Assembly (NCBI RefSeq): GCF_000024205.1
Contig: NC_013216.1
Location: 3,658,001-3,722,000 of the forward strand
Length of the DNA stretch: 64,000 nucleotides
Direction of reading: 5' to 3'
Source: Desulfofarcimen acetoxidans DSM 771
GTDB lineage: Bacteria; Bacillota; Desulfotomaculia; Desulfotomaculales; Desulfofarciminaceae
Shown here: piece after piece, positions 12,636 through 47,758 of the stretch
Position numbering within the stretch: position 1 is the first letter of the stretch
Layout of the letters: each line of letters opens with the position of its first letter
The notes under the pieces: generated by a model
What the model saw: the letters and a program-made list of their open reading frames with translations, nothing else
Told to the model about the DNA's origin: nothing
Database searches by the model: none
Translations under genes and position numbers: made by a program

Positions 12636-13317
12636 GGCCTGAATCTCCTTTCCGCCCGTCATTCCCGACAATCCGTCCTTCTGCCAGTGTGATAACACGC
12701 TCCGCCACCTTGTTCACAAAGGCCAAGTCATGACTAACCAGGATCATGCCCCTGCCCAGCAGGGCTGTTTTTATTAAAAAAGCTTCTAAAAGCTTCTTGC
12801 GGTAAGCATCCAAGCCGATTGTGGGCTCATCCAAAATCAGAAAATCAGGTTCACTGGCTAGTACAGCAGCTATCGCCAGGCGTTGTTTTTCCCCCTGACT
12901 CAAATATAGCGGAAAAGCATTGCGACAAGCTGCCAGCTCAAAATAATCCAGATAGAACTCAACCCTTTCCCGCACCGTATACGGGTTGCAGCCGCGGTAG
13001 ATTAACCCGAAACCTATTTCCTCCTCCACAGTATTGCAAAAAAGCTGCAAATCCGGGTTTTGAAAAACATATCCAATGCGGCACCCGATTTCAGCCAGCG
13101 AATAATTGTCAATAGATCGCCCCGCCAGATAAATTTCCCCCGCACTGGCCCGTAACAGCCCAACCATTAGCTTGGTCAGAGTGGTCTTACCACTGCCATT
13201 CGCTCCGACAATAGCTGTTATTTCTTTTTTCTCCAATGCCAGGTTAATCCCGGTCAACAAAGTTGTTTTCTTACGGGGATAGGAGAAAGCTACCTGGCTC
13301 AACTCCAAATATGCCAC
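12625..13317 (-). CDS. ECF transporter ATPase (EcfA-type)
   Basis: The 230-residue ABC ATPase has all canonical motifs: Walker A GANGSGKTT, Q loop FQNPDLQLFCNTVEEEI, signature LSQGEKQR, Walker B FLILDEPTIGLD, and the switch histidine in LVSHD. The FQNPD..L....V..E pattern is characteristic of ECF/cobalt-type ATPases. Translation starts at a GTG (13315-13317) with GGAG nine bases upstream. It overlaps ecfT by 11 bases and follows the second ATPase by 34 bases, so the three are co-expressed. Confidence 0.9.
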   Translation of the reverse strand: MAYLELSQVAFSYPRKKTTLLTGINLALEKKEITAIVGANGSGKTTLTKLMVGLLRASAGEIYLAGRSIDNYSLAEIGCRIGYVFQNPDLQLFCNTVEEEIGFGLIYRGCNPYTVRERVEFYLDYFELAACRNAFPLYLSQGEKQRLAIAAVLASEPDFLILDEPTIGLDAYRKKLLEAFLIKTALLGRGMILVSHDLAFVNKVAERVITLAEGRIVGNDGRKGDSGHEA

Positions 13318-13351: not shown

Positions 13352-14083
13352 TCAGCAAATTAACCGAATGGCAGCCATAAAGTCGCGATCGGCCAAAAGC
13401 GTTTCCATCCGGTCAAAGCGAACCGCTGCCCCATTCTCCAACACCAGCAGACGATCAGCAAAAGCAACAGCTTCCAGATCATGCTCTACAACTATAATTG
13501 TTTTTCCCCCGTCGCGAAGTTTTTTCAACACAGTTGACACTCTCTTTTTACCTGCTGCGTCAAGCTGAGACATAACTTCGTCCAATATCAGCACCGGCGG
13601 GTCAAGAGACAAAACCGCGGCCAGAGCCACCAAGTGTTTCTCGCCACCGGAAAGCTGGTAAGGATTTGCCTCTCTTAAGTCAGCAATTCCCACTAAAGCA
13701 AGCACACCATCCACCCGTTCCCGAATACGATCAGGCGGCAAGCACAGGTTCTCCGGTGCAAAAGCAATTTCGTCTTCCACCGTGGGTGAAAAAAGCTGCA
13801 TATCAGGATCCTGAAAGACCATTCCCACTTCCAGGGCCAACTTTGCCGCTCTCATTTCCCGGACATTTTTACCGTTTACCACTACTTCACCCTTCATTAC
13901 CCCATAACGGTTGCATTGAACAGTACCGCTGATACAACCACAGAGAGTGCTTTTGCCACAGCCGCTCAAGCCAGCTACCACAACCATTTCTCCTTGGGTC
14001 ACCTTAAAGTTTATACACTTTAATATAGATGGCCCGCCTGCCTGGTATTGATAAGCTAATCCCTTAACCGCCACAGCATCCAT
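13352..14083 (-). CDS. ECF transporter ATPase, second copy
   Basis: This 243-residue partner ATPase has Walker A GLSGCGKST, Q loop FQDPDMQLFSPTVEDEI, signature LSGGEKH, Walker B VLILDEVMSQLD and the switch region VVEHD. Two positions depart from the usual form: the signature lacks the final QR, and the Walker B loop has V-M-S-Q where most have P-T-S-A. With the neighbouring ATPase it would form the heterodimeric motor under EcfT. It is separated from the upstream TrmO-FmdE gene by 35 bases. Confidence 0.88.
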   Translation of the reverse strand: MDAVAVKGLAYQYQAGGPSILKCINFKVTQGEMVVVAGLSGCGKSTLCGCISGTVQCNRYGVMKGEVVVNGKNVREMRAAKLALEVGMVFQDPDMQLFSPTVEDEIAFAPENLCLPPDRIRERVDGVLALVGIADLREANPYQLSGGEKHLVALAAVLSLDPPVLILDEVMSQLDAAGKKRVSTVLKKLRDGGKTIIVVEHDLEAVAFADRLLVLENGAAVRFDRMETLLADRDFMAAIRLIC

Positions 14084-17524: not shown

Positions 17525-18811
17525 CTAATCAACTGCTTGCAATATAGTCGGATTAAAGTTAATATCGTTGGTTATGTCATCAACAATATAAGCATTGACT
17601 ACATCTCCGGGCTGAACATTAAAACCGGCCTGAGCAATATCAACCAAATCAAAATCAGCCTTTGTTATATTTAAGCTGAGTTGGACACCGTTTCTTGTAT
17701 GAACAAAGACAACCGCTTCCAAACCATCATGTGCTGTTGCCGGCACTACCTGTACACCAAAATATTTCATACCGGAATGACCGTTTTTTACTGTCATGGT
17801 ATTAATCCCTTCAACATTTGTATCGTTTTGATATGCCGCATCTGCCACAGGTATTACTGTATACACCGGATTTGTCACCATACTGTTAATTATCTGGCTA
17901 ACATTTGCATCCCGGTAACCAGTTGCTTTAACCACAACCTGATACGTTCCGGCAACAGTAAAGACACCGGCATTGACGGCAATCTGCCCGGCAGACAAAG
18001 CATACTGGCCGGCAATTGTATTGCCGTTAACAGTGATATCACTTATATTGCTGCGCCAGCCAATATCATCAGTAAAGGTTAGATAAACAATTTGTCCCAC
18101 AGTGTTATGAGTCGTGTCGGCTATTACAGACGGAGGGGTTGCCGGAAGCAGATTACCGTCTACATCAATCTCATTAACATATTTGGCAAACCTGCCGCTG
18201 GTTGCATCTGTTATATTATTGGGATCCTGTCCAAAGCAAAGCCTCAGCGTATTTACACCATCCATCATGTTAAACTGCGGAGCAGTATCAAATCTTTTAT
18301 AGTAAGATTTAGTGGCCAGGATTGGATCTACCTGTATCCCGCCAGCCAGAGCATCACCATAAATACAGTGATTTACCGAATCCCAATAAGTAGTTATATT
18401 AGGATAGTAGTAACGGGGCGTATCCAGCAAATATTGTTTGGCTACTGAGATTGAATAACCGTCCGTCGACTTAAATTTAATATTTTGCACTGAATTGACG
18501 TCGATCCCGGCATCAGTCAGTATATCTGTCACCTTGACACCTCTAGCCGCCGTCATGCATGGCGCCGGCATACTGTCAATCGAAGAGTAACCCTGCGTAA
18601 CCTGAGTCATACCTTCCAATTCACTAATTGAATAGGTTTTCACCGTATTATCATTAAGTTTAACCGTTAGCGATGTTGCAGGTGTCCCGGTTGCCGCATT
18701 GGCCGTGACCGGCAAAAATGTCCCGAGAACAGCGAATAACAAAGTTAACATGATCAAACAAGTAAGCATCTTTTTTGTTCCGCGTTCAAACACAAATCCC
18801 GTTAATTGCAT
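17525..18811 (-). CDS. Exported sulfite-oxidase-like fold protein with HID domain
   Basis: From the ATG at 18809-18811 (GGAGGAGG just upstream) the protein has 428 residues. A signal peptide ends at TANA (about residue 38). Residues about 45-225 form a sulfite-oxidase-like molybdopterin-binding fold with the array's shared motifs: DSMPAPCM, a DILTDAGID helix, LLDTPRYYYPN and RLCFGQ. Residues about 230-310 match the hemoglobin-interacting (HID) domain of streptococcal Shr (WRSNISDITVNG, YQVVVKATGYRD). Residues about 315-428 are a module also found at the end of the phosphatase encoded at 18970. It has no wall anchor, so it may be released or bound to other surface proteins. Cofactor binding is unproven. 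Confidence 0.7.
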   Translation of the reverse strand: MQLTGFVFERGTKKMLTCLIMLTLLFAVLGTFLPVTANAATGTPATSLTVKLNDNTVKTYSISELEGMTQVTQGYSSIDSMPAPCMTAARGVKVTDILTDAGIDVNSVQNIKFKSTDGYSISVAKQYLLDTPRYYYPNITTYWDSVNHCIYGDALAGGIQVDPILATKSYYKRFDTAPQFNMMDGVNTLRLCFGQDPNNITDATSGRFAKYVNEIDVDGNLLPATPPSVIADTTHNTVGQIVYLTFTDDIGWRSNISDITVNGNTIAGQYALSAGQIAVNAGVFTVAGTYQVVVKATGYRDANVSQIINSMVTNPVYTVIPVADAAYQNDTNVEGINTMTVKNGHSGMKYFGVQVVPATAHDGLEAVVFVHTRNGVQLSLNITKADFDLVDIAQAGFNVQPGDVVNAYIVDDITNDINFNPTILQAVD

Positions 18812-18969
18812 TTTTCCTCCTCCTTTTTTAACAGAGCTCCAGATAATATGCTCCTCTATCAAACAGTGCCGCAGCGCAATAGTTGCCCTGCAACCCTTCT
18901 CTCCGATTAATATTTATTCCGTATGCCAATAATTTCTTTCCTTTGAAACATCTGCGCAAATATCACCTT

Positions 18970-20568
18970 TTATTGTAAAACCTTCGGATTCGAATCAACC
19001 TCATTGGTTAAACCATCTACCATGAAGACTTTAATAACATCTCCGGGCTGAACATTAAAACCGGACTGAGCGATATCAACCACATCAAAATCTGCCTTAG
19101 TAATGTTCAAGTTAAGTTGGATGCCGTTTCTTTCGTGTGTAAAGACGAGCGATTCATTTCCGTGATGCTCTGTAATCGAAGCAACTTGCACACTAAAATA
19201 TTTCATCCCGGCAACACCGCTATTTACTGTCATTTTGCTTATCCCGTCTTCCGCTGCATCGGACTGATAATTAACATCGGGCAGCGGCGTGACTGTATAC
19301 GCGGCATCAACATTAACCGGCTGCTTGATATACATGTAACTGTCAATAACCCGTCCCTCGGCATCTTTGGCTGTCAATGACAAAGTATCTCCGTTGATGT
19401 TTATAACTTCATAGTTGCTGGCATTGGACACTTCTTTGGCGATATAATCATAATTGGGTCCGGCTGCGTAATATTTGTTTCCTGCAAGGCCCATGATGTA
19501 AACAATGCCCTGTCCGTCAGGCTGAACCTGATTGCCCAGCAGCGGTTTAGTCCGCATATAGACATGCTGGTGCCCGACAAAGACCATGTCGACTCCTCCC
19601 TGTTCAAAAAGGGGAACCCAGTTTTCCTGAAGATTTTCCGCATGATTATCCGGAACAACCGGGTATGGCGGGTAATGCAGAACTACAAACTTCCATTGTT
19701 TGAGACTGCCGGCAAGATCGTTCTTCAGCCAGGTACTAATCTTGTCATAGCCCGAATCGGCAGGTGTGCCCAGATAATTGCTGTCCAGCACAACAAAATG
19801 ACAATTGCCGTAATCAAAGGAATAGTCTTTTTCCTCATACCCTGAAGGCCCGTTTCCCGGCAAGGCAAAATATTTAAAATATAATGATGCGTCGGTATTT
19901 TCATGATTGCCTTCGGCAGGCATTAAAGGAATATAATTAAAAACACCGGCAGCCGCGCTGAATAACTGCGACCATTGTTCCGGATCATCCGCTTCGTCAA
20001 CCAAATCACCCGCTTGCAGGGCGAATTTTACATCCGGACAACCGGCAATGGCTTGCGCCAAAAGCTGCTGCCATAAACCCGCACTCATATCATTATGACC
20101 GGCGTGCACATCACCCATAAACATAAAGGAAAATTTATCTGTCGGGGCCGCTGTGGTAAAGGCGGCCGGTTCACTCCAGCAACCGTCAGAACCTACGCGA
20201 TAGACATAGTCAGTACCCGGCTGCAGATTATCCAACTCCGCCTCAAAATGGTTAAATCCGCCATGCAGCTCAGTACAGGCAGCAGCCTTCTCCAGCGCAC
20301 CGCTAAAATCATCTGTTTTATCGCTTTCCCTCATATACTGAATCTTGCCGCTGCCAACAGCGTACGCCCGCCAGCATACGGTCTGGGTAGTCTCAGGCTC
20401 ACCTGTCCATGACAGTATTATTTCATCGGGCCTACCGGAACCGGCGCTGTTATCAGCGGCCATACATTGATTAACCACCATCAATAAGCTGCTGACTATA
20501 CCCCATATAACCAGATAACGAAATATCTTAGAGTGTTTTGACTTGCCGTTTCTTTTTATCAACTTCAC
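18970..20568 (-). CDS. Secreted purple-acid-phosphatase-like metallophosphoesterase
   Basis: The 532-residue protein has a signal segment (about 12-38) and an N-terminal fibronectin-like domain of the purple acid phosphatase type (RPDEIILSWTGEPETTQTV...YRVGSDG). A calcineurin-like metallophosphoesterase domain follows at about 143-380. All metal-ligand blocks are present: GDVHAG, GDLVDE, GNHENTD, the histidine in VVLHYPP, and GHQHVY. It should hydrolyse phosphomonoesters or diesters outside the cell. The C-terminal 115 residues are the same module as in the protein at 17525 (YTVTPLPDVNYQ to VLQ). A close relative is encoded at 31496, which ends in a different module. Confidence 0.82.
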   Translation of the reverse strand: MKLIKRNGKSKHSKIFRYLVIWGIVSSLLMVVNQCMAADNSAGSGRPDEIILSWTGEPETTQTVCWRAYAVGSGKIQYMRESDKTDDFSGALEKAAACTELHGGFNHFEAELDNLQPGTDYVYRVGSDGCWSEPAAFTTAAPTDKFSFMFMGDVHAGHNDMSAGLWQQLLAQAIAGCPDVKFALQAGDLVDEADDPEQWSQLFSAAAGVFNYIPLMPAEGNHENTDASLYFKYFALPGNGPSGYEEKDYSFDYGNCHFVVLDSNYLGTPADSGYDKISTWLKNDLAGSLKQWKFVVLHYPPYPVVPDNHAENLQENWVPLFEQGGVDMVFVGHQHVYMRTKPLLGNQVQPDGQGIVYIMGLAGNKYYAAGPNYDYIAKEVSNASNYEVININGDTLSLTAKDAEGRVIDSYMYIKQPVNVDAAYTVTPLPDVNYQSDAAEDGISKMTVNSGVAGMKYFSVQVASITEHHGNESLVFTHERNGIQLNLNITKADFDVVDIAQSGFNVQPGDVIKVFMVDGLTNEVDSNPKVLQ

Positions 20569-20701: not shown

Positions 20702-22219
20702 TTATGGAATACGCCAGTAAGGCACAAACATATTATTATTGCTGAATATCGCTTCCGCTCCGACTAATTTACCGGACATGCTTCCCTGATTGGCAGTAAT
20801 TATAACTTTACCGGACCATTTACTGATAATTTTAGACAGATAATTATCTAACGAACTAATTGCCTGCATCGTCGGCCTGGCTATTTCACCGTAACGCTGC
20901 CCGGTTTCATCAATATCATGAAAGCGAACCATTATTAAATCATAGCCCTTATCCAGATTAGCCAAGGCCGTTTCATACAGGTCATCATCAGTATTGCCAT
21001 CGGAATTCCGATCGGTAACGGGCAGTGGTTGTATTTCAGTATCAAGCCGGTTTGGAGCAGCCTCCAAAAACAGTACCTTTTTACTCAACCTGTTCGCCTC
21101 CGCAAAAATCGATGATGCTTTTAACTGCCGGTCTTTTTCGCTTACAATACCATTTTCTTCAGGAGCTTGACCGGTTAACAGAGCAGCCAAACCCACATTG
21201 GACGCAGGCGGATAAACACCGGAAGCCTTTACGGCAGTCCCGTATCTTTTTAGAAACGGCATATAGCCGTTAGCCGCAGCATAGCTGTACTGATTGTAGT
21301 TAAGCCCGTCCAGCACTAGCACCAGCAACCTGTCGCCTCCCTCAAGATAATGCCGTGCATCATAATAAGTGTCCATGATGCTGGCGGCGGGCGGGCGAAG
21401 GATTACTCCCCGCACTTGTTCCAGAATAGTCCGGTCCTCTGGCTGCAGGTAACTGATATTATTATCTCTTACTTCAAAATAACCGCTGTTATCCACCATA
21501 CGGTATTTTCCCTTTTCCGTCATTACCAGGAGGTTATCTCCTTCTTTGACCGGCGTTACGTCACTTAATTTAAAAACCAGCCTCTTGGTGTAAACCTGAG
21601 ATTCATAATCTTTACCATTGTTTTGAACGGCGGCCCTCCCCTCCGGGTAAAAATACCGCGTTAACGGCCTGCTCAGCAACTGCCCCGGTGTAACCCGCAC
21701 CAGGTTGTTTTCCGTGTCTATAACATTTAAGGCAAAATCCCCGGAACTGCCATCCGATACAACCACGATTTCTGTAAGCATTTTGGTATTGCTGCTCACT
21801 GGGTGTTTCAAATTGACAGCTTCCCAGCCATTTTGGTGAGTAAAAGAAATATAGCAATCTTCAATCTCTGCTGCTTTGATAGCCGGAGTAAACCCATCCA
21901 GACCGGCTAAATACAGCTGACTTGGATTGGCCACCGGTTCAGCCTTACTGATGATATCCGACAGTTTAATGGCCTTGTATTTGGTTCCCTGAAAACTAAT
22001 CTGTTCCAGCTTACCGATTTCGTTTGGGCTTTGCAGACAATAGCTGTTGGAAACATCACCAATTATCCTTAATGGCGGTATGTAACAGGGAGCCTTATAT
22101 ATAAAGCTTAAAGCAGCCGCCCCGATTACCAACAGCAGCAATCCCAAACAAAACTCCTTCGACAATTTTTCCTTAACTTTAATTTTTATTATCCCCTCCC
22201 TCACTGAGCCTTTGCACAA
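20702..22219 (-). CDS. Membrane-anchored alkaline-phosphatase-fold protein, likely inactive
   Basis: The 505-residue protein has one N-terminal membrane segment (about 24-44). A sulfite-oxidase-like domain follows (about 50-200) and then an alkaline-phosphatase superfamily domain (about 295-505) with VLVLDGLNYNQ and a PPASNVGLAALLTG block for the nucleophile. Later metal ligands are replaced: the usual D..GH.YG appears as DETGQRYG, and the usual S-D-H-G appears as ANQGSM. Catalysis by the standard two-metal mechanism is therefore doubtful. The start is unclear: a strong GGGAGGGG site is followed at proper spacing only by ATT, while TTG at the given start lacks a site. Confidence 0.7.
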   Translation of the reverse strand: MCKGSVREGIIKIKVKEKLSKEFCLGLLLLVIGAAALSFIYKAPCYIPPLRIIGDVSNSYCLQSPNEIGKLEQISFQGTKYKAIKLSDIISKAEPVANPSQLYLAGLDGFTPAIKAAEIEDCYISFTHQNGWEAVNLKHPVSSNTKMLTEIVVVSDGSSGDFALNVIDTENNLVRVTPGQLLSRPLTRYFYPEGRAAVQNNGKDYESQVYTKRLVFKLSDVTPVKEGDNLLVMTEKGKYRMVDNSGYFEVRDNNISYLQPEDRTILEQVRGVILRPPAASIMDTYYDARHYLEGGDRLLVLVLDGLNYNQYSYAAANGYMPFLKRYGTAVKASGVYPPASNVGLAALLTGQAPEENGIVSEKDRQLKASSIFAEANRLSKKVLFLEAAPNRLDTEIQPLPVTDRNSDGNTDDDLYETALANLDKGYDLIMVRFHDIDETGQRYGEIARPTMQAISSLDNYLSKIISKWSGKVIITANQGSMSGKLVGAEAIFSNNNMFVPYWRIP

Positions 22220-22226
22220 CCACAGC

Positions 22227-23342
22227 TTACTTCAGAACCTCAATAGAGAGCAGATTATCCACCTTATTAATGCCGGATCCACCGGAGGTGATAAAAGTCA
22301 GAAATCCGCCGTCATTTTGATAAACCAAACCGTTGCCCAGATTATCAGCCGCTAATTCAACACTCCTGCCGTCAGCGCCGGTAAACCTATAGTTATTGCC
22401 TCCTGTCATGCCAATCTGCTTAAAAATCTGTGATAATGCAATTCCTTCTTTATTTTCAACAGTCTGTTTGGGCAAACAGGTTATTGCCTCAGTACAATCG
22501 AATATGGCAGTCTGATCATAGACAACATAAAGCAAATCACGTATATGCATACCTGTCGGAAGTGACGGCGCGATAAATTTAGGTGCGTCTTTACCGCTTA
22601 TTTTGATATAGGCGGACAGAAAATTAGCACCGGTTTCATTTTTCTGCAAGCCGTCGCCGGCCTTTAGGAAAACACTGCCCACAGCTTTATCATCGTTGCC
22701 GACATATTTTGTTATAAGGTCCCTGGTTTTAATAACTTTATCCACACTGTCGAAGTACCGGTAATCCTCCTGGGGCAAGTTGCCGGCTGCCGTTTCGAGA
22801 AATACTACTTTATTGACTGACTTTCGGCTGTCACCAGTTTCAAAACCCATGAAAACAGTGCCTCTAACCCAATACATGGAACGCTCACCGGGAATAATGA
22901 TGTGAAGCGGGTACCAATCTTCCGGCATGGGCTCCCCATCATTAATGTAGGACAAAATAATCTGCCGGTTAGCCAGGATCTCATGCGGAACGGCAATTGA
23001 ATATCTGTCTTTAGCCGTAAAACGGACGCGGCTAAAATCTTTCTGGCTCTTTCCATACTGCCGCAGGAAAGTATCCAGCAAAGGGCCGGTGGCGTCTACA
23101 CTGACTGTTTCTCCATTAGCCCGTGTGGCTTCCCCATGTTTGGTTACTGCCGGCAATTTTTTCAGATCACCCAGTGTTATTGTAAAGTCCCGGTCACGCA
23201 ATCCCTGCACGATAATCTTCTCTCCGTCAAAAGGACCCGGGGTGCCGGCGGCTGCTCCCGGCTTCCAGCTTTTGCAGGCAGTTATGCTCATCAGCAAAAG
23301 CAAGCTCAACAACATCGGTATGGTAAAATTCTTATTCATCAT
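22227..23342 (-). CDS. Lipoprotein with two sulfite-oxidase-like domains
   Basis: The 371-residue protein starts with a lipoprotein signal (LLLMSITAC, lipidation at about Cys23). It then has two domains of the sulfite-oxidase-like fold. The first (about 40-205) carries ITLGDLKKLPAVTKHG, GPLLDTFLRQYG, PLHIIIPGE and YWVRG, which is closest to the typical family. The second (about 245-371) is more divergent. It would sit on the outer face of the membrane. The gene ends seven bases before the start given for the phosphatase-fold gene at 20702, suggesting coupled translation. No cysteine equivalent to the molybdenum ligand of sulfite oxidase was identified. Confidence 0.72.
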   Translation of the reverse strand: MMNKNFTIPMLLSLLLLMSITACKSWKPGAAAGTPGPFDGEKIIVQGLRDRDFTITLGDLKKLPAVTKHGEATRANGETVSVDATGPLLDTFLRQYGKSQKDFSRVRFTAKDRYSIAVPHEILANRQIILSYINDGEPMPEDWYPLHIIIPGERSMYWVRGTVFMGFETGDSRKSVNKVVFLETAAGNLPQEDYRYFDSVDKVIKTRDLITKYVGNDDKAVGSVFLKAGDGLQKNETGANFLSAYIKISGKDAPKFIAPSLPTGMHIRDLLYVVYDQTAIFDCTEAITCLPKQTVENKEGIALSQIFKQIGMTGGNNYRFTGADGRSVELAADNLGNGLVYQNDGGFLTFITSGGSGINKVDNLLSIEVLK

Positions 23343-23361: not shown

Positions 23362-23895
23362 TCATTGTAATTCCAGGCTCACCAGCCAATTGGTAAAGCG
23401 CTGCCCGAACTCATCGTTACATATAATTATTTTCATGCTTCCTTCTCCGCCTGTTTTAGTTTTCAACGGTTTGCCGAAATCAGCATAAGCAATATACACA
23501 TTATCAGGCTGGAGAACTTCAGACATATCTATGACAGAGGTATAATTATCAATACCTTTTGCAATAATTTTTTTATATTTTTGAGTTAAATCCTGGTCGA
23601 TACTGTTTAAGACTGCCAGAAGGGGGGTACAGGTAAAATCACTCTCGGTATTACCCAGGCCGGAATGAACAGTCATTTTCTTTTCAACTGCCGGCAATTT
23701 CCTGATATCGGCAATACTTAAACTGCCCAATCCAGTTTCACCGGCTTTAATTACAAGCGTGCCTTCTTTCAGGACTGCACCGTCATGATTTAAAAAAGAG
23801 AAGAAGGCAATACACAGGAAAAGCAAAACTATAACCGCAGCAAGCAATTTATTTAAATTAAACAAATCGCCTTTTCCAACATTTGTTTCGACCAT
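23362..23895 (-). CDS. Membrane-anchored single sulfite-oxidase-like domain protein (copy 1)
   Basis: The 177-residue protein has an N-terminal membrane anchor (about 16-36) and one sulfite-oxidase-like domain with IADIRKLPAVEKKM, LLAVLNSID, VLQPDNVYIAYADFG and GEGSMKIIICND. Its paralog at 30224 has the same layout and nearly the same C-terminal sentence (GQRFTNWLVSLELQ versus GQRFTKWLVSLELQ). Both begin MVETN or MVETK. The two may be membrane partners of the larger secreted proteins. Confidence 0.72.
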   Translation of the reverse strand: MVETNVGKGDLFNLNKLLAAVIVLLFLCIAFFSFLNHDGAVLKEGTLVIKAGETGLGSLSIADIRKLPAVEKKMTVHSGLGNTESDFTCTPLLAVLNSIDQDLTQKYKKIIAKGIDNYTSVIDMSEVLQPDNVYIAYADFGKPLKTKTGGEGSMKIIICNDEFGQRFTNWLVSLELQ

Positions 23896-23960: not shown

Positions 23961-25541
23961 TTATTTCAACACTTGCAAAATAGACGTCACAGCCTCCGCC
24001 CTGGTCGCCTTAGCCAGAGGATGGAAGGTATTGTCGGGATATCCCTTCATCATCCCGTTCGCTGCCGCGGTGCTAACAGCATCCCTGGCCCAACCGGAAA
24101 TGCCATTATTGTCCGCAAAACGGTTTACTTCCGTAGCCGGGGCAAGTTTGGCTGCTTTGACAAGCATTACGGCCATCTGCTCGCGCGTAATCAAGTCATC
24201 CGGGCCGAAAATATTATCGTCATAACCGCTAGCTATACCATAGGAGACAGCGGCGCCGACATACTCTTTCGCCCAGTGCTCTTTCGTATCGGCAAAGACT
24301 TTAGCACTCTGAAGCGGCATCTTTAATGCTTTTGCCAAAACAACTACAAATTCTGCCCGGCTAATTGATTCATCAGGCTTGAAATTGCCATCCGGGTAAC
24401 CGCCAACCGCGCCTAAGTCAATCATTTCTTTGATGCTGTTTTCAGCCCAGTGACCGGCAATATCTTTTAAAGCAACTGAAGTTTTTTGAACAGACGGAGT
24501 GTTATTTGTTTTATTGGCGATGTCATTGACTGCTGCGGGATTTACGGTTACAGCACATACAGCTGATTTGCCGCCGTCTGTTGTGGTCACAGTTATCCTG
24601 GCTGAGCCAGGTGCAACAGCGGTCACCAGCCCGGTACCGCTTACCTCAGCAACTGAACTGTCACTGGATTTCCAGGTCACAGCCTGGTTGTCGGCATCTG
24701 ACGGAGCGACCAAAGCCTTCAGCTGCTCTGTGCCGCCGACAGTAATTATGGCGGAAGACTTATTCAGCGAAACACCGGAAACAGAGACAGCAGATGTAGA
24801 TGCACCTGAAGACGAGCCTCCGGAAGAGGGCGGTTTACCGCTCAGCGTTACGTCAATCTGATACACCCATTTAACCGCATACGGAGCGGTGATTTCGGTC
24901 AAATCGTTATAGGGCTGGCCAATGACCAGTCTATACCTGGTGGAACTGTCCTGCGTACTGAAATCCGGAGCCATACCTCCCCGTACCCAGTTATCAGATA
25001 TACACATCATCGGCTCGACCGGAACAGCACCTTCCAAAGCTTTATAAGTTACATCCGTAACACTATCCTCAGCCATAAAATTATGAGTGTCCGGGTTCCA
25101 ATATTTCATTTCGTTTGGGTAGTAGTAACGTGACAAAAACAAAAAAGACTTGGTTAAAGTTTTCCATGGCCTGCCGGAAACATCTGTTGTATAAAATGAC
25201 AATGATTCTATTTTATTAAAATCAATACCGGCTCTTGACAGGAGATTTTTCAGCGGTATTCCCGTTACCGCGTCCATGCATGGCGACGGCATGCTGTCCA
25301 TAAAGGAATAGCCCTGTTGAAAGGCGCCGCCAAAATCGCTGTCGGTGAAAACTTTTGCCTCGGTAAAACTCCCACCGGAATAGCCAACTCTGATTGTAAG
25401 CGATGCCGCCGGACTGCTGCTTGTGTAGGGATCGGCGTCGGACGTACCCGGCAGGTTAACCGATAACATAAAAAACAGAGCAAGCATTAGCAAGAATTTA
25501 TTAATTTTCCATGCTTTACTTTTTAATGCCCATAGATTCAT
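23961..25541 (-). CDS. SLH-anchored sulfite-oxidase-like protein with Big2 domain
   Basis: The 526-residue protein has a signal peptide (about 14-36) and a sulfite-oxidase-like domain (about 45-235) with DSMPSPCM, SRYYYPN and YRLVIGQ. A serine/glycine linker, a bacterial Ig-like group 2 domain (about 258-338, VSLNKSSAIITVGGTEQL and VTWKSSDSSVAEVSGTGLV) and three SLH repeats (about 358-526) follow. It is thus a wall-bound version of the array's common domain. The DSMP-x-x-CM cysteine is shared with the proteins at 17525 and 27312. Confidence 0.82.
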   Translation of the reverse strand: MNLWALKSKAWKINKFLLMLALFFMLSVNLPGTSDADPYTSSSPAASLTIRVGYSGGSFTEAKVFTDSDFGGAFQQGYSFMDSMPSPCMDAVTGIPLKNLLSRAGIDFNKIESLSFYTTDVSGRPWKTLTKSFLFLSRYYYPNEMKYWNPDTHNFMAEDSVTDVTYKALEGAVPVEPMMCISDNWVRGGMAPDFSTQDSSTRYRLVIGQPYNDLTEITAPYAVKWVYQIDVTLSGKPPSSGGSSSGASTSAVSVSGVSLNKSSAIITVGGTEQLKALVAPSDADNQAVTWKSSDSSVAEVSGTGLVTAVAPGSARITVTTTDGGKSAVCAVTVNPAAVNDIANKTNNTPSVQKTSVALKDIAGHWAENSIKEMIDLGAVGGYPDGNFKPDESISRAEFVVVLAKALKMPLQSAKVFADTKEHWAKEYVGAAVSYGIASGYDDNIFGPDDLITREQMAVMLVKAAKLAPATEVNRFADNNGISGWARDAVSTAAANGMMKGYPDNTFHPLAKATRAEAVTSILQVLK

Positions 25542-25697: not shown

Positions 25698-26279
25698 CTA
25701 ACCGGCGTCATCTTTAGAAGATTGCCAGTCCCGTTTTTGGAATTTCCATAGCCGCTGTACAATTTTAAAAGCTATCAAACCACCCAGGCCGCCGGACAAT
25801 GCAGCGGTACTCAAACTTAAAGCCAAAGGAATTGCAGGAAGCCGGTAATAAATGAAATTTACCATAGCAGTACCGGCAATATTGCACAACGCCCCTGCCA
25901 GAAAGGAACAGGGCAGGCAGCAAACCCGGTGGCCAATGAGCAGCAGCCCCAGATCGGCCAAAAGTCCCGGCGCGGTATAACTCAGCAAGCTCATCACCCC
26001 TTGCGAGCCAACCATGCCGGTGGCCATTACCAGGATAGCCTGGATAAGGCCAATCAGGGTCATCGTTCCTCTTTTCCCGGTGATACCAAAACCCAAAACC
26101 AGCCACAACATATAGAAGCCGCCTGCCACAGCTCCCCCTGGTATAAAAAGTGCTCCGGTTATAATATGAGACAGGGGAACTATGATAGGTTTGACAGCTA
26201 TTCCCAGGGCAGACATCATGGCTATGATAATCAAATCATAAAGAGAAAACCTATCCAAAAACCTTTGCCAAAAACTCAC
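25698..26279 (-). CDS. ECF transporter substrate-binding (S) component
   Basis: The 193-residue protein is almost wholly hydrophobic with about six membrane helices. It begins with a short amphipathic stretch and LYDLIIIAMMSALGIAVKPI, in which small residues match the AxxxA-type surface that S components use to dock on EcfT. It lacks a recognisable vitamin-specific signature such as that of biotin, thiamin or riboflavin transporters. It is encoded 13 kb away from ecfT and the two ATPases but in the same orientation and between the proton channel genes and surface proteins. That placement suggests it uses that module. Confidence 0.75.
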   Translation of the reverse strand: MSFWQRFLDRFSLYDLIIIAMMSALGIAVKPIIVPLSHIITGALFIPGGAVAGGFYMLWLVLGFGITGKRGTMTLIGLIQAILVMATGMVGSQGVMSLLSYTAPGLLADLGLLLIGHRVCCLPCSFLAGALCNIAGTAMVNFIYYRLPAIPLALSLSTAALSGGLGGLIAFKIVQRLWKFQKRDWQSSKDDAG

Positions 26280-26369: not shown

Positions 26370-26651
26370 TTACTGGTTAGTCAGCATAAAAAGCTTTCCC
26401 GTGGCAGGGTCTTTGTAGACCGTGCCCATCTTTTCATAAAGCTTGCCCTGATCCTGGGTTTCAATTAAATTGCTTTGTATATCCTGGTTTTGTGTCACTT
26501 CCTGACCACGCTTCATGTCAACACGGGCTCCTGGCTGATCGAGATTGACATTCCAGTGAATAACCAGAGATAACATCAACCCGCAGGCAAACACCAGCAT
26601 GGCATCCACTATGTTAACAGCACCCTCTAAAGGATTGACCTCGTCGCGCAT
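26370..26651 (-). CDS. DUF2149 membrane protein, ExbB-channel partner
   Basis: The 93-residue protein has the DUF2149 hallmarks: MRDEVNPLEGAVNIVDAMLVFACGL, one membrane helix, and the C-terminal YEKMGTVYKDPATGKL. In methanogenic archaea DUF2149 genes adjoin MotA/TolQ/ExbB channel genes. A single helix plus an outer domain suggests an ExbD-like role. I chose the ATG at 26649-26651 because it follows the upstream stop by ten bases and gives the family's usual N-terminus. The longer frame would overlap the upstream gene. Confidence 0.78.
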   Translation of the reverse strand: MRDEVNPLEGAVNIVDAMLVFACGLMLSLVIHWNVNLDQPGARVDMKRGQEVTQNQDIQSNLIETQDQGKLYEKMGTVYKDPATGKLFMLTNQ

Positions 26652-26661
26652 CCTGATTCTT

Positions 26662-27315
26662 CTACTCCTCAACCCCCCGTTCACGGGCAAGCACCTCCAG
26701 TAAGCTTTCCATCATGGCCTCAAGAGAACTCAAGTAATCCTCATACCACCTTTTCCGCAGCCTGGAGATAACAAAAGCAACACCGGCGGCCGCCAAACCG
26801 GACACCGTTGCGTCAAAGGCGGTGAGCAGCGAATCTGCCAGAGTTTTGGTATCACCCTGACCAAGGGCAATCATGCCCGGCCCCAGAGGAATCAGAGTGG
26901 CCATCAATCCAAGCATGGGCCCCAAACGTGCAACCAAATCAGTCCTGTTGGTTATTTTAACATAATGCAATTCCTCACCGGCAAGCAAACGGCGGGCCAG
27001 GGCCCGCAAGGAAGCGGCAGGCAAGTTGCTGTGCCTGCTTAGCTCGCCAAGAACTGCTTTCTGGCGCCGGAACAAGCGGCTTTTCTCAATTTCCTCCATG
27101 ATCTTCCCGGCATTTTTCCCCTGAAATTTTTCGACCATTTCCGGCACGTTTATCTTTACCTTACGCCGATCCGTAAGGGCTTCCGCCAGCAAGCCACCCA
27201 ACTCCACCACTGCCAAAGCCATAAACAGCAGCAAAATAATAATAGTAGGAATTAGTAAAGCAGACGAAATAGTATGCATCGTATCTCTAAGCAGCGTCAA
27301 CATAGAAACTGTCAC
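26662..27315 (-). CDS. MotA/TolQ/ExbB-type proton channel
   Basis: The 217-residue protein has three membrane helices: about 17-40, then ARLGPMLGLMATLIPLGPGMIAL and FDATVSGLAAAGVAFVISRL, separated by a long cytosolic stretch, as in ExbB/TolQ. Family members convert the proton gradient into mechanical work on a partner protein. Its GTG start overlaps the stop of the upstream surface-protein gene in a GTGA, so the two are translationally coupled, and DUF2149 follows after ten bases. No TonB-like or outer-membrane receptor gene is present, as expected for a monoderm. Confidence 0.85.
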   Translation of the reverse strand: MTVSMLTLLRDTMHTISSALLIPTIIILLLFMALAVVELGGLLAEALTDRRKVKINVPEMVEKFQGKNAGKIMEEIEKSRLFRRQKAVLGELSRHSNLPAASLRALARRLLAGEELHYVKITNRTDLVARLGPMLGLMATLIPLGPGMIALGQGDTKTLADSLLTAFDATVSGLAAAGVAFVISRLRKRWYEDYLSSLEAMMESLLEVLARERGVEE

Positions 27316-28598
27316 CTAACAACCTCCCTTATATGTTCCATGTATCTTTTACCTGACCCCCCAAGCAATAAGACACCAAGCAATACTGCCGCAAAAATAT
27401 CCAGTGTATTTTGCCGCTTCTGCTGCTGCAAAGGCACAGCATCAGATGACATCTCATATACGCGCCAGGGCTGGCTGCCCGACTGTTCGGAAGCGGCAGG
27501 GGCAGCTGTGGAAACAGCGGCTGTGATCTCCTTTTTCGCCAGGTGTTGCCGGTTGTCTTCAGACACCGGCAACCCGAACGGATTATCAACTTCTCCGTTC
27601 TTTTGAGGACCGGCGCCGAAAGGCTCAGAACTTTGACCGGGCCCGGTCTCCCTGGGACCGTTTACGATACATGTTGCCGTTAAATTACCCACTACAGTAC
27701 TGACTGCAATGGTAGCCGCGCCCGGACCCACAACTGTCACCAGACCGTTGTGATCCACTGTGGCCACACCGGGATCGCTGGAACTCCAGGTCACGCTCTT
27801 GTCCGTAGCTTCATACGGGGCCACGGTAGCCGTCAACCGTACCGTACTGCCTACTTTAAGATTGACTGCATTCTGATCCAGAGTAACTCCGGCAGGAGGC
27901 ATGCCCCCCAACATCACATCGATGGAATGCACCCATTTGGCAGACTGCGGAGCGGTACATTCATCAGGCTCCTTCTGACCAAACAGCAGCCTGAACCTGG
28001 TTGAAGTGTCGTAAACGCTGAAATCCGGAACTTCGCCATAACGCTGCCAGTTATCCTTGTACGCAATAATAGGATCTACACGGATCGCCCCGTAAACTGC
28101 TTCAAGTGTAGAAGAACCCTTTTCATAGTCCCAGCCCGCAGGCAGATTAGGATAATAATAACGGGGGGTATCCAGCAGGTAGGACTTATCTAAACATTGA
28201 TACCAGCCCTTTCTTATATCGGTGGCATAAAAATAAAATTTTTGCACAGAATTGACATCAATACCGGCATCCGCCAGCAAGTCTGTCAACCTGACTCCGG
28301 TGGCCGCATCCATACACACAGACGGCATGCTGTCAATAAAAGTATAAGCCTGTTTTACCTGTGAAAGCTGATCAAAATCACTAAGAGTATAAACCTTCTT
28401 TGTATAGTAAGGCCCGCCAAAATAACCAACCTTAATCACAAGCGTATCAGACGGCACTCCTTGTATACCGGTGCCACAGCCTGTACTGGCCATACCCGGC
28501 CCGGCAATGTACAACAGGCTAAGCAATGCGGCCGGAACCAGCCCAAGAAGAACTGCTTTTCGCAACCGGAATTTAAACTCCAACCATCTCAACCTCAT
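27312..28598 (-). CDS. Membrane-anchored sulfite-oxidase-like protein with Big2 domain
   Basis: The 428-residue protein has a signal segment (about 12-38) and a sulfite-oxidase-like domain (about 50-235) with DSMPSVCM, DLLADAGID, LLDTPRYYYPN and FRLLFGQ. A Big2 domain (about 238-315) and a linker lead to a C-terminal membrane helix (about 398-414) followed by a short basic cytosolic tail. It is the only large member held by a C-terminal helix, and its stop codon overlaps the start of the ExbB-type gene. It is the best candidate in the array for the protein moved by the proton channel. That function is inference. Confidence 0.75.
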   Translation of the reverse strand: MRLRWLEFKFRLRKAVLLGLVPAALLSLLYIAGPGMASTGCGTGIQGVPSDTLVIKVGYFGGPYYTKKVYTLSDFDQLSQVKQAYTFIDSMPSVCMDAATGVRLTDLLADAGIDVNSVQKFYFYATDIRKGWYQCLDKSYLLDTPRYYYPNLPAGWDYEKGSSTLEAVYGAIRVDPIIAYKDNWQRYGEVPDFSVYDTSTRFRLLFGQKEPDECTAPQSAKWVHSIDVMLGGMPPAGVTLDQNAVNLKVGSTVRLTATVAPYEATDKSVTWSSSDPGVATVDHNGLVTVVGPGAATIAVSTVVGNLTATCIVNGPRETGPGQSSEPFGAGPQKNGEVDNPFGLPVSEDNRQHLAKKEITAAVSTAAPAASEQSGSQPWRVYEMSSDAVPLQQQKRQNTLDIFAAVLLGVLLLGGSGKRYMEHIREVVR

Positions 28599-28660: not shown

Positions 28661-30181
28661 TTATTGCAGCAAGTTATATAATCGTAAAATCATGACAGCC
28701 GCTTCAGCCCTGGTAGTAAGCAATTGGGGGGCAAATCTGTCTTCGCTCACTCCGCTTACTATTCCACAGCTTACTGCCAGTGCAATATCCTGCCTTGCCC
28801 AGGGTGATATAGCATCTTTATCCGCGAACTTGTCAGTTGCCTGCTGTGTAATAGCATGGGACAAATCTTTAGTTGACTTCATTTTCAAGGCCCTGGTGAT
28901 AATTACGGATATTTGTTCTCTGGTTATGCATTCATTCGGAGCATAAGTATTATCATCATTACCCTTAATTAACCCCGCCTTGACTGCTGCGGCTACATAA
29001 TCGTGATACCACGCGCTTGCCGGCACATCCTTAAAGGAAAGGTCTTCGCCCTGATTAACTTCAATATGCAAAGCCTTAACGAGCCACTGGGCGAATTGGG
29101 CGCGTGTTGTTTTTTCATCCGGCTTGAATTCCGTTTCGGTTCCATCAATAACCCCTTTTTCCACCAAAGTGTTAATGTCTTCTTTAGCCCAGTGATTTTG
29201 TAGGTCTATAAAATCGCTGATCATGTCTTCTGCTTTATTGACCGTATTTTTCCCGGTCCCATCAGCAGGGGCAGATACCCCGGTGTTATATTGAAAAGTT
29301 TTTACCTCGCTGTCTAATTTGCCAAAACCAATTGTTCTTGCTTTAACTGTTACAGTACCATTAATAGGTATTGGTTTATTCATTTCCTCCGGGCGGAACT
29401 GAGGGTAGCTGATATTAAAAATATTGCTTCCGTAAGTTGGATCAGATCCATCCAGAGTATAGTACACCATAATATTTTCCGGTATATCATCAGGCCTTTT
29501 TAATGTTACTTTTGTGCCCGGGGCAACCGTACCGGGATTAGTATCAACAGAGGGAGCTTCCCAATGCTCCAGGGGCTCCGTTGATACTTCAATGGTTCCT
29601 CCTGCCAACATTTGCTGAATCATAACACAATCACCAATAGTTGGTTCATTCGGCTTCCGCTGTCCAAAGCAAATTCTTCCATCTGAATCATTCATTGCTA
29701 TTATCGTTTCGACCGGTATTTTTCCTTTTTCACTGCGCTTGGGCGGCCATTCCACACAGTCACCGGGACTTTCACCATCAGGAAAATAATAACGCGGTTC
29801 CTCCAGTAATTGTGCTCTGGTATAATCCATACGCACAAAACCTCCTCCGGAAGGTCTGAGTGTAAACAAGGTGGCATTGTCTTTTAAGCCCGCCACATCT
29901 AAAATGCTCTTAAGCGTTGGTCCGGTTAGATTTTTAAATACTTTTAGTGAAGGCCAATGGTTATATCCGGAATAGGTATAAGTTTTTTGCGGCAGTGCCC
30001 TCAAATCGGCCATAGTGAAATTTACTACTTTATTAACCCCGTCGCCTTTAACCGTCAACACCACCGGTTCCCCCGCAGAAGACGCTAGCGGCGCAACTGT
30101 ACTAAGCAACCCGGCAATAATACAGAGCGCCACCAGGCAGACCGGCAGTTTTATTATCCCATAAGTTTTAAGTTTTTCCAT
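28661..30181 (-). CDS. SLH-anchored sulfite-oxidase-like protein with chitobiase-like domain
   Basis: The 506-residue protein has a signal peptide (about 12-36) and a sulfite-oxidase-like domain (about 38-205) with FTMADLRALPQKTYTYSG, LLEEPRYYFPDG and RICFGQ. A chitobiase/beta-hexosaminidase C-terminal-type beta domain follows (about 210-300; VYYTLDGSDPTYG, VTVKARTIG), then three SLH repeats (about 335-506). The first 300 residues closely parallel the protein at 39721, which has a different ending, so domain swapping at the C-terminus has shaped this set. Confidence 0.82.
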   Translation of the reverse strand: MEKLKTYGIIKLPVCLVALCIIAGLLSTVAPLASSAGEPVVLTVKGDGVNKVVNFTMADLRALPQKTYTYSGYNHWPSLKVFKNLTGPTLKSILDVAGLKDNATLFTLRPSGGGFVRMDYTRAQLLEEPRYYFPDGESPGDCVEWPPKRSEKGKIPVETIIAMNDSDGRICFGQRKPNEPTIGDCVMIQQMLAGGTIEVSTEPLEHWEAPSVDTNPGTVAPGTKVTLKRPDDIPENIMVYYTLDGSDPTYGSNIFNISYPQFRPEEMNKPIPINGTVTVKARTIGFGKLDSEVKTFQYNTGVSAPADGTGKNTVNKAEDMISDFIDLQNHWAKEDINTLVEKGVIDGTETEFKPDEKTTRAQFAQWLVKALHIEVNQGEDLSFKDVPASAWYHDYVAAAVKAGLIKGNDDNTYAPNECITREQISVIITRALKMKSTKDLSHAITQQATDKFADKDAISPWARQDIALAVSCGIVSGVSEDRFAPQLLTTRAEAAVMILRLYNLLQ

Positions 30182-30223: not shown

Positions 30224-30784
30224 TTACTGCAATTCCAAGCTCACCAGCCATTTGGTAAAACGCTGCCCGGTCTTGTCATTGCAAATAATCAATTGCATGC
30301 TGCCCTCCCCGCCTGCCTGCGTTATTAACGGCTTGCCATGATCAGCATAGACAATATACACATTATCCGGCTGCATAACTTCAGACATATCCAACACCTG
30401 GCTGTAGTAATCAACACCCCTGGCAATAATCTTGGTGTACTTTCGAGTAAGTCCGGGATCTATACCATCCAGAACTCCCAGTAGCAATGTGCCGGTATAA
30501 TCATGCTCGCTGCTATTTGCAGAATTATTGCTACATGAACTACTACAATTGGTTTGAACCACCATTTTCTTCTCCACAGCCGGCAGTTTCTGAAGATCAG
30601 CTACAGTAAAACTACCCAATGTCCCGTCACCGGCTTTTATTACTAACCTTCCTTCCTGCTGAACGCTGCTGAAGTGGTTTAATAACGAGAAACCAACAAC
30701 AGCCAGGACCAGCAGCATAATTCCTCCAATTAACCATTTTGTAGAGTTAAAGCCTTTACTTGCGTTAAACTTGGTTTCAACCAT
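30224..30784 (-). CDS. Membrane-anchored single sulfite-oxidase-like domain protein (copy 2)
   Basis: The 186-residue protein has a membrane anchor (about 16-36) and one sulfite-oxidase-like domain: VADLQKLPAVEKKM, LLGVLDGID, VMQPDNVYIVYADHG and GEGSMQLIICND. A NCSSSCSNNSANS insert near residue 85 with two cysteines is absent from the paralog at 23362. The gene lies directly downstream of the short module-A protein gene and upstream of the SLH protein at 28661. Confidence 0.72.
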   Translation of the reverse strand: MVETKFNASKGFNSTKWLIGGIMLLVLAVVGFSLLNHFSSVQQEGRLVIKAGDGTLGSFTVADLQKLPAVEKKMVVQTNCSSSCSNNSANSSEHDYTGTLLLGVLDGIDPGLTRKYTKIIARGVDYYSQVLDMSEVMQPDNVYIVYADHGKPLITQAGGEGSMQLIICNDKTGQRFTKWLVSLELQ

Positions 30785-31495: not shown

Positions 31496-33232
31496 TTAAG
31501 ACGTAATATCAAAGCTAAATTTTTGATAAGGTATGTCAATGGGTACATTTGATTCATCAAAAACATAAACATCCACATACGCCTTGCCGGCCGGAAGACC
31601 GGACAGGTTAAAATCAGCATAGATATCCACTCCTACCACCGGAACGTCGGTCTTTAAACTGGCTATCCCCAATGGTTTTCCACCACAATTCGCTGCGGCA
31701 CCATCACTACCACGCACTTGGAGCACAGCCACAGTGGTCTGCTGCTTTCCGGTATTATTGTTAAGATGTACCTGCAAGCGGAAAGCTCCCTGCACGGGAA
31801 CGGAGGTTATCTCCTGATACGAACTGTTCAAAAGCTTGACGCCGCTTACGCTCACACTTGCATCCATACTACTGCCCTTATCAACCTTATATTCATCCAA
31901 CACATTACCATCCACATCTCTGGTAATCATGGTCAGAACATCACCTTCTATTTTTATATACGTATAACAAGTCACATTTGACAATACTTTGGCAACGTAA
32001 TCATGCTGTTTCGGATTGATGTAAAACTTGTTGCCCGCATTACCCATCAAGTAAGTAATCCCGCCTGTCGGTCTATCCTGAACCTGGCCCTGGTAGATGG
32101 GATAGGTGCGCATATACATATGCTGGTGTCCTACGAAAACCATGTCAACTCCGTTACGCTCCAACACCGGCACCCAGTATTGCCTGATGATATCGGAAGC
32201 TGCAGCGTCATTGTCACCTATATTGATGGTATAGGCAGGCACATGAAACATAACAAATTTCCATTTCTTATTACTTTGCTGTAAATCGTTTTCCAGCCAA
32301 GTTATGCCGGCCTGGTAAGCATCGCCATCACAACCCATCAGGCTGCTGTCCAGCACAACAAAATGAGCATTACCATAGTCAAATGAATAGTTATGTCCTT
32401 CATACCCAACCGGCCCGTTTTGGGGCAAGGCAAAATATTTATTAAACAGATCAGCATCGCCACTATCATGATTCCCTTCGGCAGGCATTAGCGGTATATG
32501 ATCAAAAACACCTGCTGCAGCAGTGAACAGTTGAGACCAATCCCCGGTGTCTTCCGAATTGTCAACTATGTCACCGGCTTGCAAGGCAAATTTTATATCC
32601 GGATATGCGCTGCAGGCCTGTGCCAGAAGCTGCTGCCAGATACCGGCACTGGTATCATAATAACCGGAATGCACGTCACCCATAAACATAAAAGAAAAAT
32701 TATTTGTCGCAGCCGCCGTAGTAAAGGTAGCCGGCTCGCTCCAGCCACTGTCCTTGCCGACACGGTAGACATATGTGGTACCAGGCTGCAAATTATCCAA
32801 CTCAGCCACAAAATGATTGAAACCGCCGTACAACTGGCTGCCAGCAATATCCTTTTCCTGCGCGCTGCTGAAATCATCCGTACTGCCACTTTGCGGCAAA
32901 TACTGAATCTTACTGCCGGCAACACCGTATACTCGCCAGGATACAGTCTGGGTGGTCTGCGGATCGGCCGTCCAAGTCAGGATAATCTGGTCCGGCCGGG
33001 TGCTGTATAGCTGGGAATCAACATTCTGATCTGCTTGCGCAGGAATCTCATCCACATTTAGAGCAGCACCATACACCTGCGAGGAAATTGATTGGACTGC
33101 CGACGAACTGTTCAGATCAGGCTGGGCAAGGGTTTCTAGTGCCAGCCCCTGTCCTGTAAAAATTAAGCCGGCTATCAGCATTATCGCTAGCAACAGGCTA
33201 AACCCCATTAACCGGCATCTTTTCTCTGCCAT
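31496..33232 (-). CDS. Secreted purple-acid-phosphatase-like metallophosphoesterase with module A
   Basis: From the ATG at 33230-33232 (AAAGGAG seven bases upstream) the protein has 578 residues: a signal segment, a spacer, and the purple-acid-phosphatase N-terminal domain (RPDQIILTWTADPQTTQTV). The metallophosphoesterase domain has GDVHSG, GDIVDN, GNHDSGD, the histidine in FHVPAYT, and GHQHMYM, so all metal ligands are present. Module A (about the last 110 residues) follows. It is about two-thirds identical by eye to the enzyme at 18970 over the catalytic region, indicating duplication inside the array followed by exchange of the C-terminal module. Confidence 0.82.
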   Translation of the reverse strand: MAEKRCRLMGFSLLLAIMLIAGLIFTGQGLALETLAQPDLNSSSAVQSISSQVYGAALNVDEIPAQADQNVDSQLYSTRPDQIILTWTADPQTTQTVSWRVYGVAGSKIQYLPQSGSTDDFSSAQEKDIAGSQLYGGFNHFVAELDNLQPGTTYVYRVGKDSGWSEPATFTTAAATNNFSFMFMGDVHSGYYDTSAGIWQQLLAQACSAYPDIKFALQAGDIVDNSEDTGDWSQLFTAAAGVFDHIPLMPAEGNHDSGDADLFNKYFALPQNGPVGYEGHNYSFDYGNAHFVVLDSSLMGCDGDAYQAGITWLENDLQQSNKKWKFVMFHVPAYTINIGDNDAAASDIIRQYWVPVLERNGVDMVFVGHQHMYMRTYPIYQGQVQDRPTGGITYLMGNAGNKFYINPKQHDYVAKVLSNVTCYTYIKIEGDVLTMITRDVDGNVLDEYKVDKGSSMDASVSVSGVKLLNSSYQEITSVPVQGAFRLQVHLNNNTGKQQTTVAVLQVRGSDGAAANCGGKPLGIASLKTDVPVVGVDIYADFNLSGLPAGKAYVDVYVFDESNVPIDIPYQKFSFDITS

Positions 33233-33327
33233 AGTGCTTCTCCTTTCCATTCTATTCATGCTCTGCGGTTTGCCTGAGTAAGCTCAGCCCCGGGCCGTAA
33301 CCCCAGCCCAGGCCAAGCTTTGCTCAA

Positions 33328-45118: not shown

Positions 45119-45295
45119 AAAAACACCTCTTTTTTATTTTTTCAGTAATAATATTAATCTTAAATATTTTAAATTAATCTGTCAATTTTAAAAAATAAGC
45201 AGGATTTACTCATTAAAAATAGAAAATATAAATTAACTAAATATTTTTTATTTTCCGAGCTGTATTACCTAAATGTATTTACTGCACACGGTAAT

Positions 45296-46490: not shown

Positions 46491-46502
46491 GGGATGACTG
46501 AT

Positions 46503-47735: not shown

Positions 47736-47758
47736 TATTTCGTAAAGGATGAGACAAA

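Follow-up and report, generated by a model that had tools for sequence, protein, structure and literature searches.

What does an ExbB-type proton channel do in a bacterium that has no outer membrane? Motors of the ExbB type are seen as a means of conveying energy to an outer membrane, and the question is raised by a three-gene set of Desulfofarcimen acetoxidans DSM 771, located at positions 26370 to 28598, on the minus strand, of the 64,000-nucleotide stretch analysed here (NC_013216.1, positions 3,658,001 to 3,722,000; hereafter the window). The set encodes a membrane-anchored surface protein, an ExbB-family channel and a small protein of the DUF2149 family. The genome, a single contig of 4,545,624 bases, harbors no match to Omp85 (PF01103, a marker of the outer membrane), TonB_C (PF03544) or ExbD (PF02472), which rules out a canonical Ton system and therefore leaves the channel without a standard one to serve. 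Ton genes of monoderms have been called likely non-functional (PMC12204202). Based on comparative sequence analysis, we argue that the motor is very probably coupled to the surface protein encoded with it. That the channel serves this receptor across a single membrane had been suggested by a sequence-only reading, and is supported by the pairing of the genes, by conserved features of the receptor tail and by the lack of Omp85, TonB_C and ExbD. We further consider it probable that the ExbB-DUF2149 motor pulls on this receptor in its own membrane, and that the receptor captures a molybdenum or tungsten (Mo/W) cofactor or a pterin for an adjoining importer of the energy-coupling factor (ECF) or FecCD type.

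Organization of the three-gene set

The receptor gene (27312..28598, minus strand), delineated from its open reading frame, Pfam, an AlphaFold2 model and homologues, codes for 428 amino acids ordered as signal peptide, SUOX-fold domain, Big_2 domain, disordered linker, juxtamembrane box and C-terminal membrane helix. Its N-terminus is a hydrophobic signal, and hydropathy maxima lie at 15, 285 and 398 of the 428 residues. As noted earlier, it has a helix at its very C-terminus, unlike every other large surface protein encoded on the minus strand of the cluster. The gene ends with ...GTT AGG TGA and the channel gene starts with GTG ACA, GTGA being common to both, so that the minus-strand overlap of stop and start codons noted earlier is exact.

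The channel subunit (26662..27315, minus strand; 217 amino acids, GTG start) was assigned to the MotA/TolQ/ExbB family by PF01618 MotA_ExbB (32.1 bits for a cut-off of 22.9) and by its place in a tree. The profile of its branch matches flagellar MotA structures (E 1.6e-4). A flagellar MotA was discarded as its identity, because the channel falls among HmuU-like proteins and the only other MotA_ExbB gene of the genome lies apart from it, at 675.8 kb.

The third gene (26370..26684, minus strand) codes for an ExbD-like subunit of the DUF2149/HmuV family (PF09919, 39.7 bits for a cut-off of 27.1), identified also by alignment. The sequence-only reading placed it ten bases 3' of exbB, which implies an ATG at 26651, and this part has to be revised. 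The start is probably GTG 26684 (or TTG 26690), overlapping exbB by 23-29 bases, because homologues keep the upstream segment NGGLRSRR. In the alignment, DUF2149 has a single membrane helix with an invariant aspartate (D29 when numbered from the TTG) and a C-terminal GTVYKDPxTGKL hairpin; D29 aligns, with a weak score, with the membrane aspartate of Escherichia coli ExbD.

Conservation of the motor-client pairing

The set was compared with about 120 relatives, among which 80 named ExbB loci come mostly from Desulfotomaculaceae, Syntrophomonadaceae and gut Clostridia; open reading frames were called by a simple script, many of the genomes are metagenome assemblies, and contig ends cut some of the loci. 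A homologous C-anchored surface protein is encoded directly upstream of ExbB in 68 of the 80. The four-base overlap recurs in 31 of 75 non-redundant homologous pairs, most others having gaps of 1-20 bases, and is therefore not due to chance. In the ExbB tree, a branch that we call class A (88 rows, support 100/100) takes in every one of the 79 loci whose client is of this type. DUF2149 itself is present in 34 of the 398 sampled genomes from the phylum of D. acetoxidans, and in 134 of 150 from the phylum of a methanogen relative.

In three class A rows (L053, L055 and L062) the receptor domain is swapped for that of another protein with a signal peptide, a C-terminal anchor and the box IFEI or IFEV, and the swapped client of L055 holds a CobN fragment (PF02514). 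The sequence-only reading had tied the motor to one type of surface protein. ExbB-DUF2149 without this type was literally found in a branch with CobN-like clients and in archaea, but the position of the client is usually filled there by a different C-anchored surface protein that bears the same box, which broadens the coupling idea instead of refuting it. A search of the examined loci for natural fusions of client with DUF2149 found none. Anaerovorax odorimutans (L123) has ExbB-DUF2149 with SUOX-type surface proteins nearby, and no adjoining C-anchored client. The class A genes of a contig binned as Parabacteroides (L119) group with those of Anaerovorax, and the contig is probably mis-binned.

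A juxtamembrane box shared by unrelated clients

The conserved features of the receptor tail fall in just the part that would meet the motor. Within the C-terminal helix (residues 398-427, 27318..27407, minus strand; model pLDDT 72-79), which contains the membrane span, G414 is the only fully invariant residue across 75 receptor homologues, and Y419 and E425 just behind it are also conserved. Just outside the membrane, the same 75 homologues conserve an acidic-hydrophobic segment, the juxtamembrane box VYEMSSDAVPL (residues 380-390, 27429..27461, minus strand), with E382 kept in 68% and L390 in 79% of them.

Similar boxes were identified in clients of entirely different kinds. Bacterial loci of the CobN branch (class B) are ordered DUF2162, ExbB, DUF2149 and then a CobN-like protein of 1300-1690 amino acids, which has a signal peptide, a C-terminal helix and, 10-20 residues before this helix, RAYEL, KAYEI, RAFEL or the like. 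Among 59 long class A loci, the DUF2162-type protein with seven transmembrane helices was found once, in L033, which itself belongs to the CobN branch. In methanogens, the adjoining large surface proteins have FmdE domains, DUF11 repeats or no known domain, and end, again 10-20 residues ahead of their helix, in KNAYEL, KSYEV or NAYEV. Of the 49 C-anchored proteins in the compared loci that belong to other kinds, 21 show the strict pattern [AVSI][YF]E[ILMV], which occurs in 0.7% of shuffled tails; those that lack it are mostly encoded away from the motor or have a variant form (SVEV, SIEI, HEI). These shuffles and the same-locus C-anchored proteins away from the motor are better controls for the box than random regions, 40 of which contained a single protein with signal and C-terminal anchor, a weak basis for a frequency.

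In TonB, the D-box is a beta-strand beside the helix that ExbD captures through strand recruitment (PMC10907165), and the receptor box resembles it in position and residue alternation. From this likeness we infer that box and helix form a putative docking site for DUF2149 and ExbB, in which case the client would be a TonB with a built-in receptor, anchored at the opposite end.

Some of the methanogen clients deserve mention in their own right. One surface protein (L182:16983-19874) has a Shr-like_HID match just below the cut-off, two FmdE stretches and the box, and is possibly a client that scavenges metal or cofactor. CbiM-like ECF components, recognised as CbiM by sequence motif only, lie near ExbB-DUF2149 in L195 and L196, which suggests cobalt or nickel uptake in archaea. 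FmdE domains occur in archaeal clients of all three loci, and two TrmO_N proteins of the window (14119-14979 and 41559-42374) have weak FmdE-like C-terminal parts.

Predicted fold of the receptor

The AlphaFold2 model of the receptor is confident for residues 50-312. Residues about 50-232 (27903..28451, minus strand; pLDDT mostly >90) adopt a predicted SUOX fold, as found in sulfite oxidase and PruR. The domain matches sulfite dehydrogenase (2c9x; Z 12.7, 2.9 A over 133 residues) and PruR (7kom; Z 12.6, 2.8 A over 125 residues of PruR's 134), the pterin-binding PruR being the nearest small structure. It is followed by a bacterial immunoglobulin-like Big_2 domain at residues 237-312 (27663..27890, minus strand; Pfam E 1.7e-16), which superposes on 7quz (Z 15.7, 0.7 A). 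A pure adhesin was rejected: Pfam shows just Big_2, yet the predicted structure reveals the SUOX domain. A molybdoenzyme was rejected as well, since the N-domain of class A homologues has no conserved cysteine that could serve as molybdenum ligand. PruR likewise lacks this cysteine, and binds reduced pterins (PMC13259868). The two are alike in fold and in having no conserved molybdenum-ligand cysteine, but PruR is small, soluble, sensory and paired with DcpA, whereas the window domain belongs to a large protein that is anchored and has a motor as its partner. The domain profile of the receptor also matches five other proteins of the cluster, several of them S-layer-anchored, which suggests a relay.

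Riboswitches and importers

In relatives such as Sporobacter (L144) and Dethiobacter (L111), a molybdenum cofactor (Moco) riboswitch (RF01055) stands at the head of the operon, and a single same-strand gene run after it includes receptor and ExbB and, in L111, also DUF2149, an S component, two ATPases and EcfT. Fourteen class A riboswitches were used to train a covariance model. It scored 59 hits across 1.58 Mb from class A loci, the positive set that includes those 14, and no hit across 1.27 Mb made up of CobN-branch, archaeal, Bacteroidota and random control regions. In 27 class A loci, of which about 24 are distinct, the riboswitch precedes the operon in the same orientation and no long gene on the other strand intervenes. 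Cobalamin riboswitches were found in 7 of 11 bacterial class B loci and in none of the class A loci scanned. Across the bacterial loci examined, the fold of the client thus tracks the class of riboswitch, CobN going with cobalamin and SUOX with the Mo/W cofactor. Most of the Moco-type RNAs (52 of 59) are short (at most 126 nucleotides), consistent with the lack of a P3 element, and P3-lacking RNAs have been tied to the tungsten cofactor by Regulski and co-workers (PMC2408646). An unusual expansion was seen in G383 and in Syntrophomonas-type genomes (G061, G134, G015 and G330), with 13-26 Moco riboswitches per genome, some of them in tandem.

The window cluster harbors a full ECF importer set, all on the minus strand: an S component of the ABC_cobalt type (25698..26279; PF09819, E 8.7e-14), homologues of which lie beside class A loci; an EcfT-type transmembrane subunit of the CbiQ family (11892..12698; E 2.1e-26); and two EcfA-type ATPases (12625..13317, ABC_tran E 8e-31, with a homologue in the L111 operon; 13352..14083, ABC_tran E 3.8e-26). 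In gut Clostridia, a FecCD/Peripla_BP_2 importer is found in place of the ECF one, and two gut loci have genes for tungsten-type aldehyde ferredoxin oxidoreductase close by.

Proposed mechanism and relation to known systems

The general view is that cells obtain the Mo/W cofactor only by internal synthesis, and we know of no bacterial uptake system for the intact cofactor or its pterin. For the ligand of the receptor, we lean slightly towards a Mo or W cofactor or a derived pterin, perhaps trimmed by the surface phosphatase or pyrophosphatase of the cluster. The receptor would merge the role of TonB with that of a receptor and present, from outside inwards, a ligand-binding SUOX domain, an immunoglobulin-like spacer, a disordered linker, a D-box-like strand and the C-terminal helix. 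DUF2149 would capture the strand while the helix packs on ExbB. Protons passing through ExbB and the DUF2149 aspartate would then pull or turn the linker, and this movement may free the ligand or pass it to the adjoining ECF importer (FecCD-type in gut Clostridia). The S-layer-anchored SUOX proteins encoded upstream would probably form a relay that carries the ligand through the wall, in the way that NEAT proteins do for haem.

Several observations weigh against this scheme. The cluster of the window has no riboswitch of its own, the RF01055 element of the window heading a divergent moe operon, and importers of either type were detected near just part of the loci. Part of class A has a degenerate box, the strict form being present in 23 of 36 scored, and the box was not seen in the sole Bacteroidota HmuS tail checked, that of an Aureibacter plasmid; HmuS tails come from one plasmid only because no DUF2149 was found in the 147 other genomes searched of the phylum around the Parabacteroides assembly. 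Finally, a profile comparison of DUF2149 with ExbD covers the helix alone (probability 4.8, P 0.008), and no ExbD-type globular domain is detectable in its poor model (pLDDT 61), which displays only the hairpin and, being of low confidence, was kept out of fold searches.

Compared with TonB-ExbB-ExbD, the window set shares an ExbB-family channel, a small partner with a membrane aspartate and a single-pass client with, putatively, a D-box-like strand beside its helix, but its client is C-anchored and bears the ligand domain itself, and DUF2149 has no recognisable ExbD globular domain. The Isd/NEAT haem relay of Gram-positives uses one domain family in wall- and membrane-anchored proteins beside an importer. 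The domain family of the window is likewise repeated in S-layer- and membrane-anchored proteins by an importer; the differences are SUOX rather than NEAT domains, an added proton motor and an importer of the ECF or FecCD type. As for ECF importers (CbiMNQO/EcfAAT type), the S component, two ATPases and EcfT are those expected, but here the set is linked to a motor driven by the proton motive force (PMF) and to a surface receptor.

The closest known relative of the motor is HmuU/HmuV of the Bacteroidota haem operon, which is the same motor pair (PMC10434189). HmuU/HmuV is presumed to drive HmuR in the outer membrane; among the other Hmu proteins, HmuS is a de-chelatase that carries a helix at each end, and HmuT has no assigned role (PMC12583661). 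The earlier description of a new arrangement in bacteria thus holds in part: the motor pair was already known, but no paper describing the present arrangement was found in the literature searched, which leaves out most subscription journals. The same searches returned no paper on DUF2149 function outside Bacteroidota, on ExbB joined with a Moco RNA function, or on a Moco riboswitch in Desulfotomaculum. The hmu operon has the same two motor families as the window set, and in relatives a boxed CobN-like client adjoins the motor. However, the hmu host is diderm, its motor is assumed to act for HmuR and no SUOX client is present, the window client being a SUOX/Big_2 protein and not a CobN-like HmuS. 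A complete hmu haem operon was found on plasmid pAT2 of Aureibacter tunicatorum (L181), with an HmuS tail devoid of the strict box.

Taken more broadly, ExbB-DUF2149 may pull interchangeable C-anchored surface proteins through a shared box and helix and so define a built-in TonB class in single-membrane bacteria and archaea, with class A as a PMF-driven scavenger of the intact Mo/W cofactor or its pterin; we advance this joint reading tentatively and at somewhat less than even chance. It would account for an intact motor with an apparent client of its own in single-membrane cells and for docking features that recur in unrelated clients of methanogens and Clostridia, while offering a testable function for DUF2149 and a candidate route for Mo/W cofactor uptake. 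If true, HmuUV of the haem operon would be reassigned to HmuS as client, giving a new view of its part in haem de-chelation.

Alternative explanations

The alternative that survives best keeps the coupling and changes the ligand, to molybdate or tungstate, a metallophore, or a haem- or corrinoid-like tetrapyrrole. Oxyanion transporters are also found under Moco riboswitches (PMC2408646), the FecCD/Peripla_BP_2 importers of the gut loci belong to a family that carries haem, B12 and siderophores, other clients of the motor are CobN-like, and a protein with a Shr-like_HID domain is encoded within the cluster. Known SUOX-fold members, however, bind pterins or Moco and not oxyanions or tetrapyrroles (PMC13259868), and the riboswitches of the scanned class A loci are of the Moco and not the cobalamin class; we regard another ligand as a possibility clearly second to a cofactor or pterin.

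Less likely still, the motor could drive a mechanical or enzymatic cycle of the client, such as metal removal or insertion, instead of a hand-over in transport. It would replace the ATPase of class 1 chelatases in CobN-like clients, and open the SUOX domain to load or unload metal. HmuS, with its helices at both ends, de-chelates haem (PMC12583661), and boxed CobN-like clients adjoin the motor, but the class A SUOX domain has no conserved metal-ligand cysteine and the importers beside many loci point to uptake, which makes such a cycle unlikely for the receptor.

Some loci, few in number, have no adjoining client, as in Anaerovorax, and would fit a set of genes that are neighbours by co-regulation only, ExbB-DUF2149 serving a partner encoded elsewhere. 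The conserved overlap, the invariant membrane glycine and a box common to unrelated clients all speak against it, as does the position of the only other MotA_ExbB gene of the genome at 675.8 kb, and we hold it to be improbable. A sensory complex in which the SUOX protein perceives extracellular pterins and gates ExbB, much as PruR, a sensory SUOX protein (PMC13259868), informs DcpA, is at least as improbable, as importers and surface relay proteins, but no signalling enzyme, could be recognised among the genes of the examined operons.

Other genes of the cluster

The three-gene set lies within a region rich in genes for surface proteins, all on the minus strand. Directly upstream of the receptor lies a gene for a SUOX-type protein anchored to the S-layer by S-layer homology (SLH) domains (28661..30181; profile i-E 4e-21, SLH E 4.3e-38), and beyond it one for a small N-anchored Oxidored_molyb (SUOX) protein (30224..30784; PF00174, E 1.1e-8). 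On the other side are a second SLH protein, which combines the N-domain of the receptor with Big_2 (23961..25541; N-domain profile i-E 1e-47), a small N-anchored SUOX-like protein (23362..23895; PF00174, E 1.3e-4, just below the cut-off) and a SUOX-like lipoprotein (22227..23342; PF00174, E 2e-7). A secreted protein (17525..18862) joins a SUOX-type N-domain (profile i-E 1e-55) to a Shr-like haemoglobin-interacting domain (Shr-like_HID, PF07550, E 6.8e-24), here in an environmental anaerobe. Enzymes are represented by a surface phosphodiesterase/nucleotide pyrophosphatase (20702..22219; PF01663, E 5.6e-11) and two secreted proteins resembling purple acid phosphatases (18970..20568 and 31496..33259; PF16656 and PF00149 in both).

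Genes for Moco synthesis lie further upstream. They comprise mobB, for molybdopterin guanine dinucleotide synthesis (44621..45118, minus strand; PF03205, E 8e-47) and, on the plus strand, the RF01055 riboswitch (45241..45385; 76.8 bits for a gathering score of 36) heading the divergent moeA/mobA operon, where Pfam identifies a MoCF_biosynth protein, moeA and a mobA-like gene (45465..48364). Finally, the region between 33328 and 36093 codes for a secreted protein of 921 amino acids with many repeats that resemble those of RCC1-type beta-propellers (WGDNxxGQCxVP).

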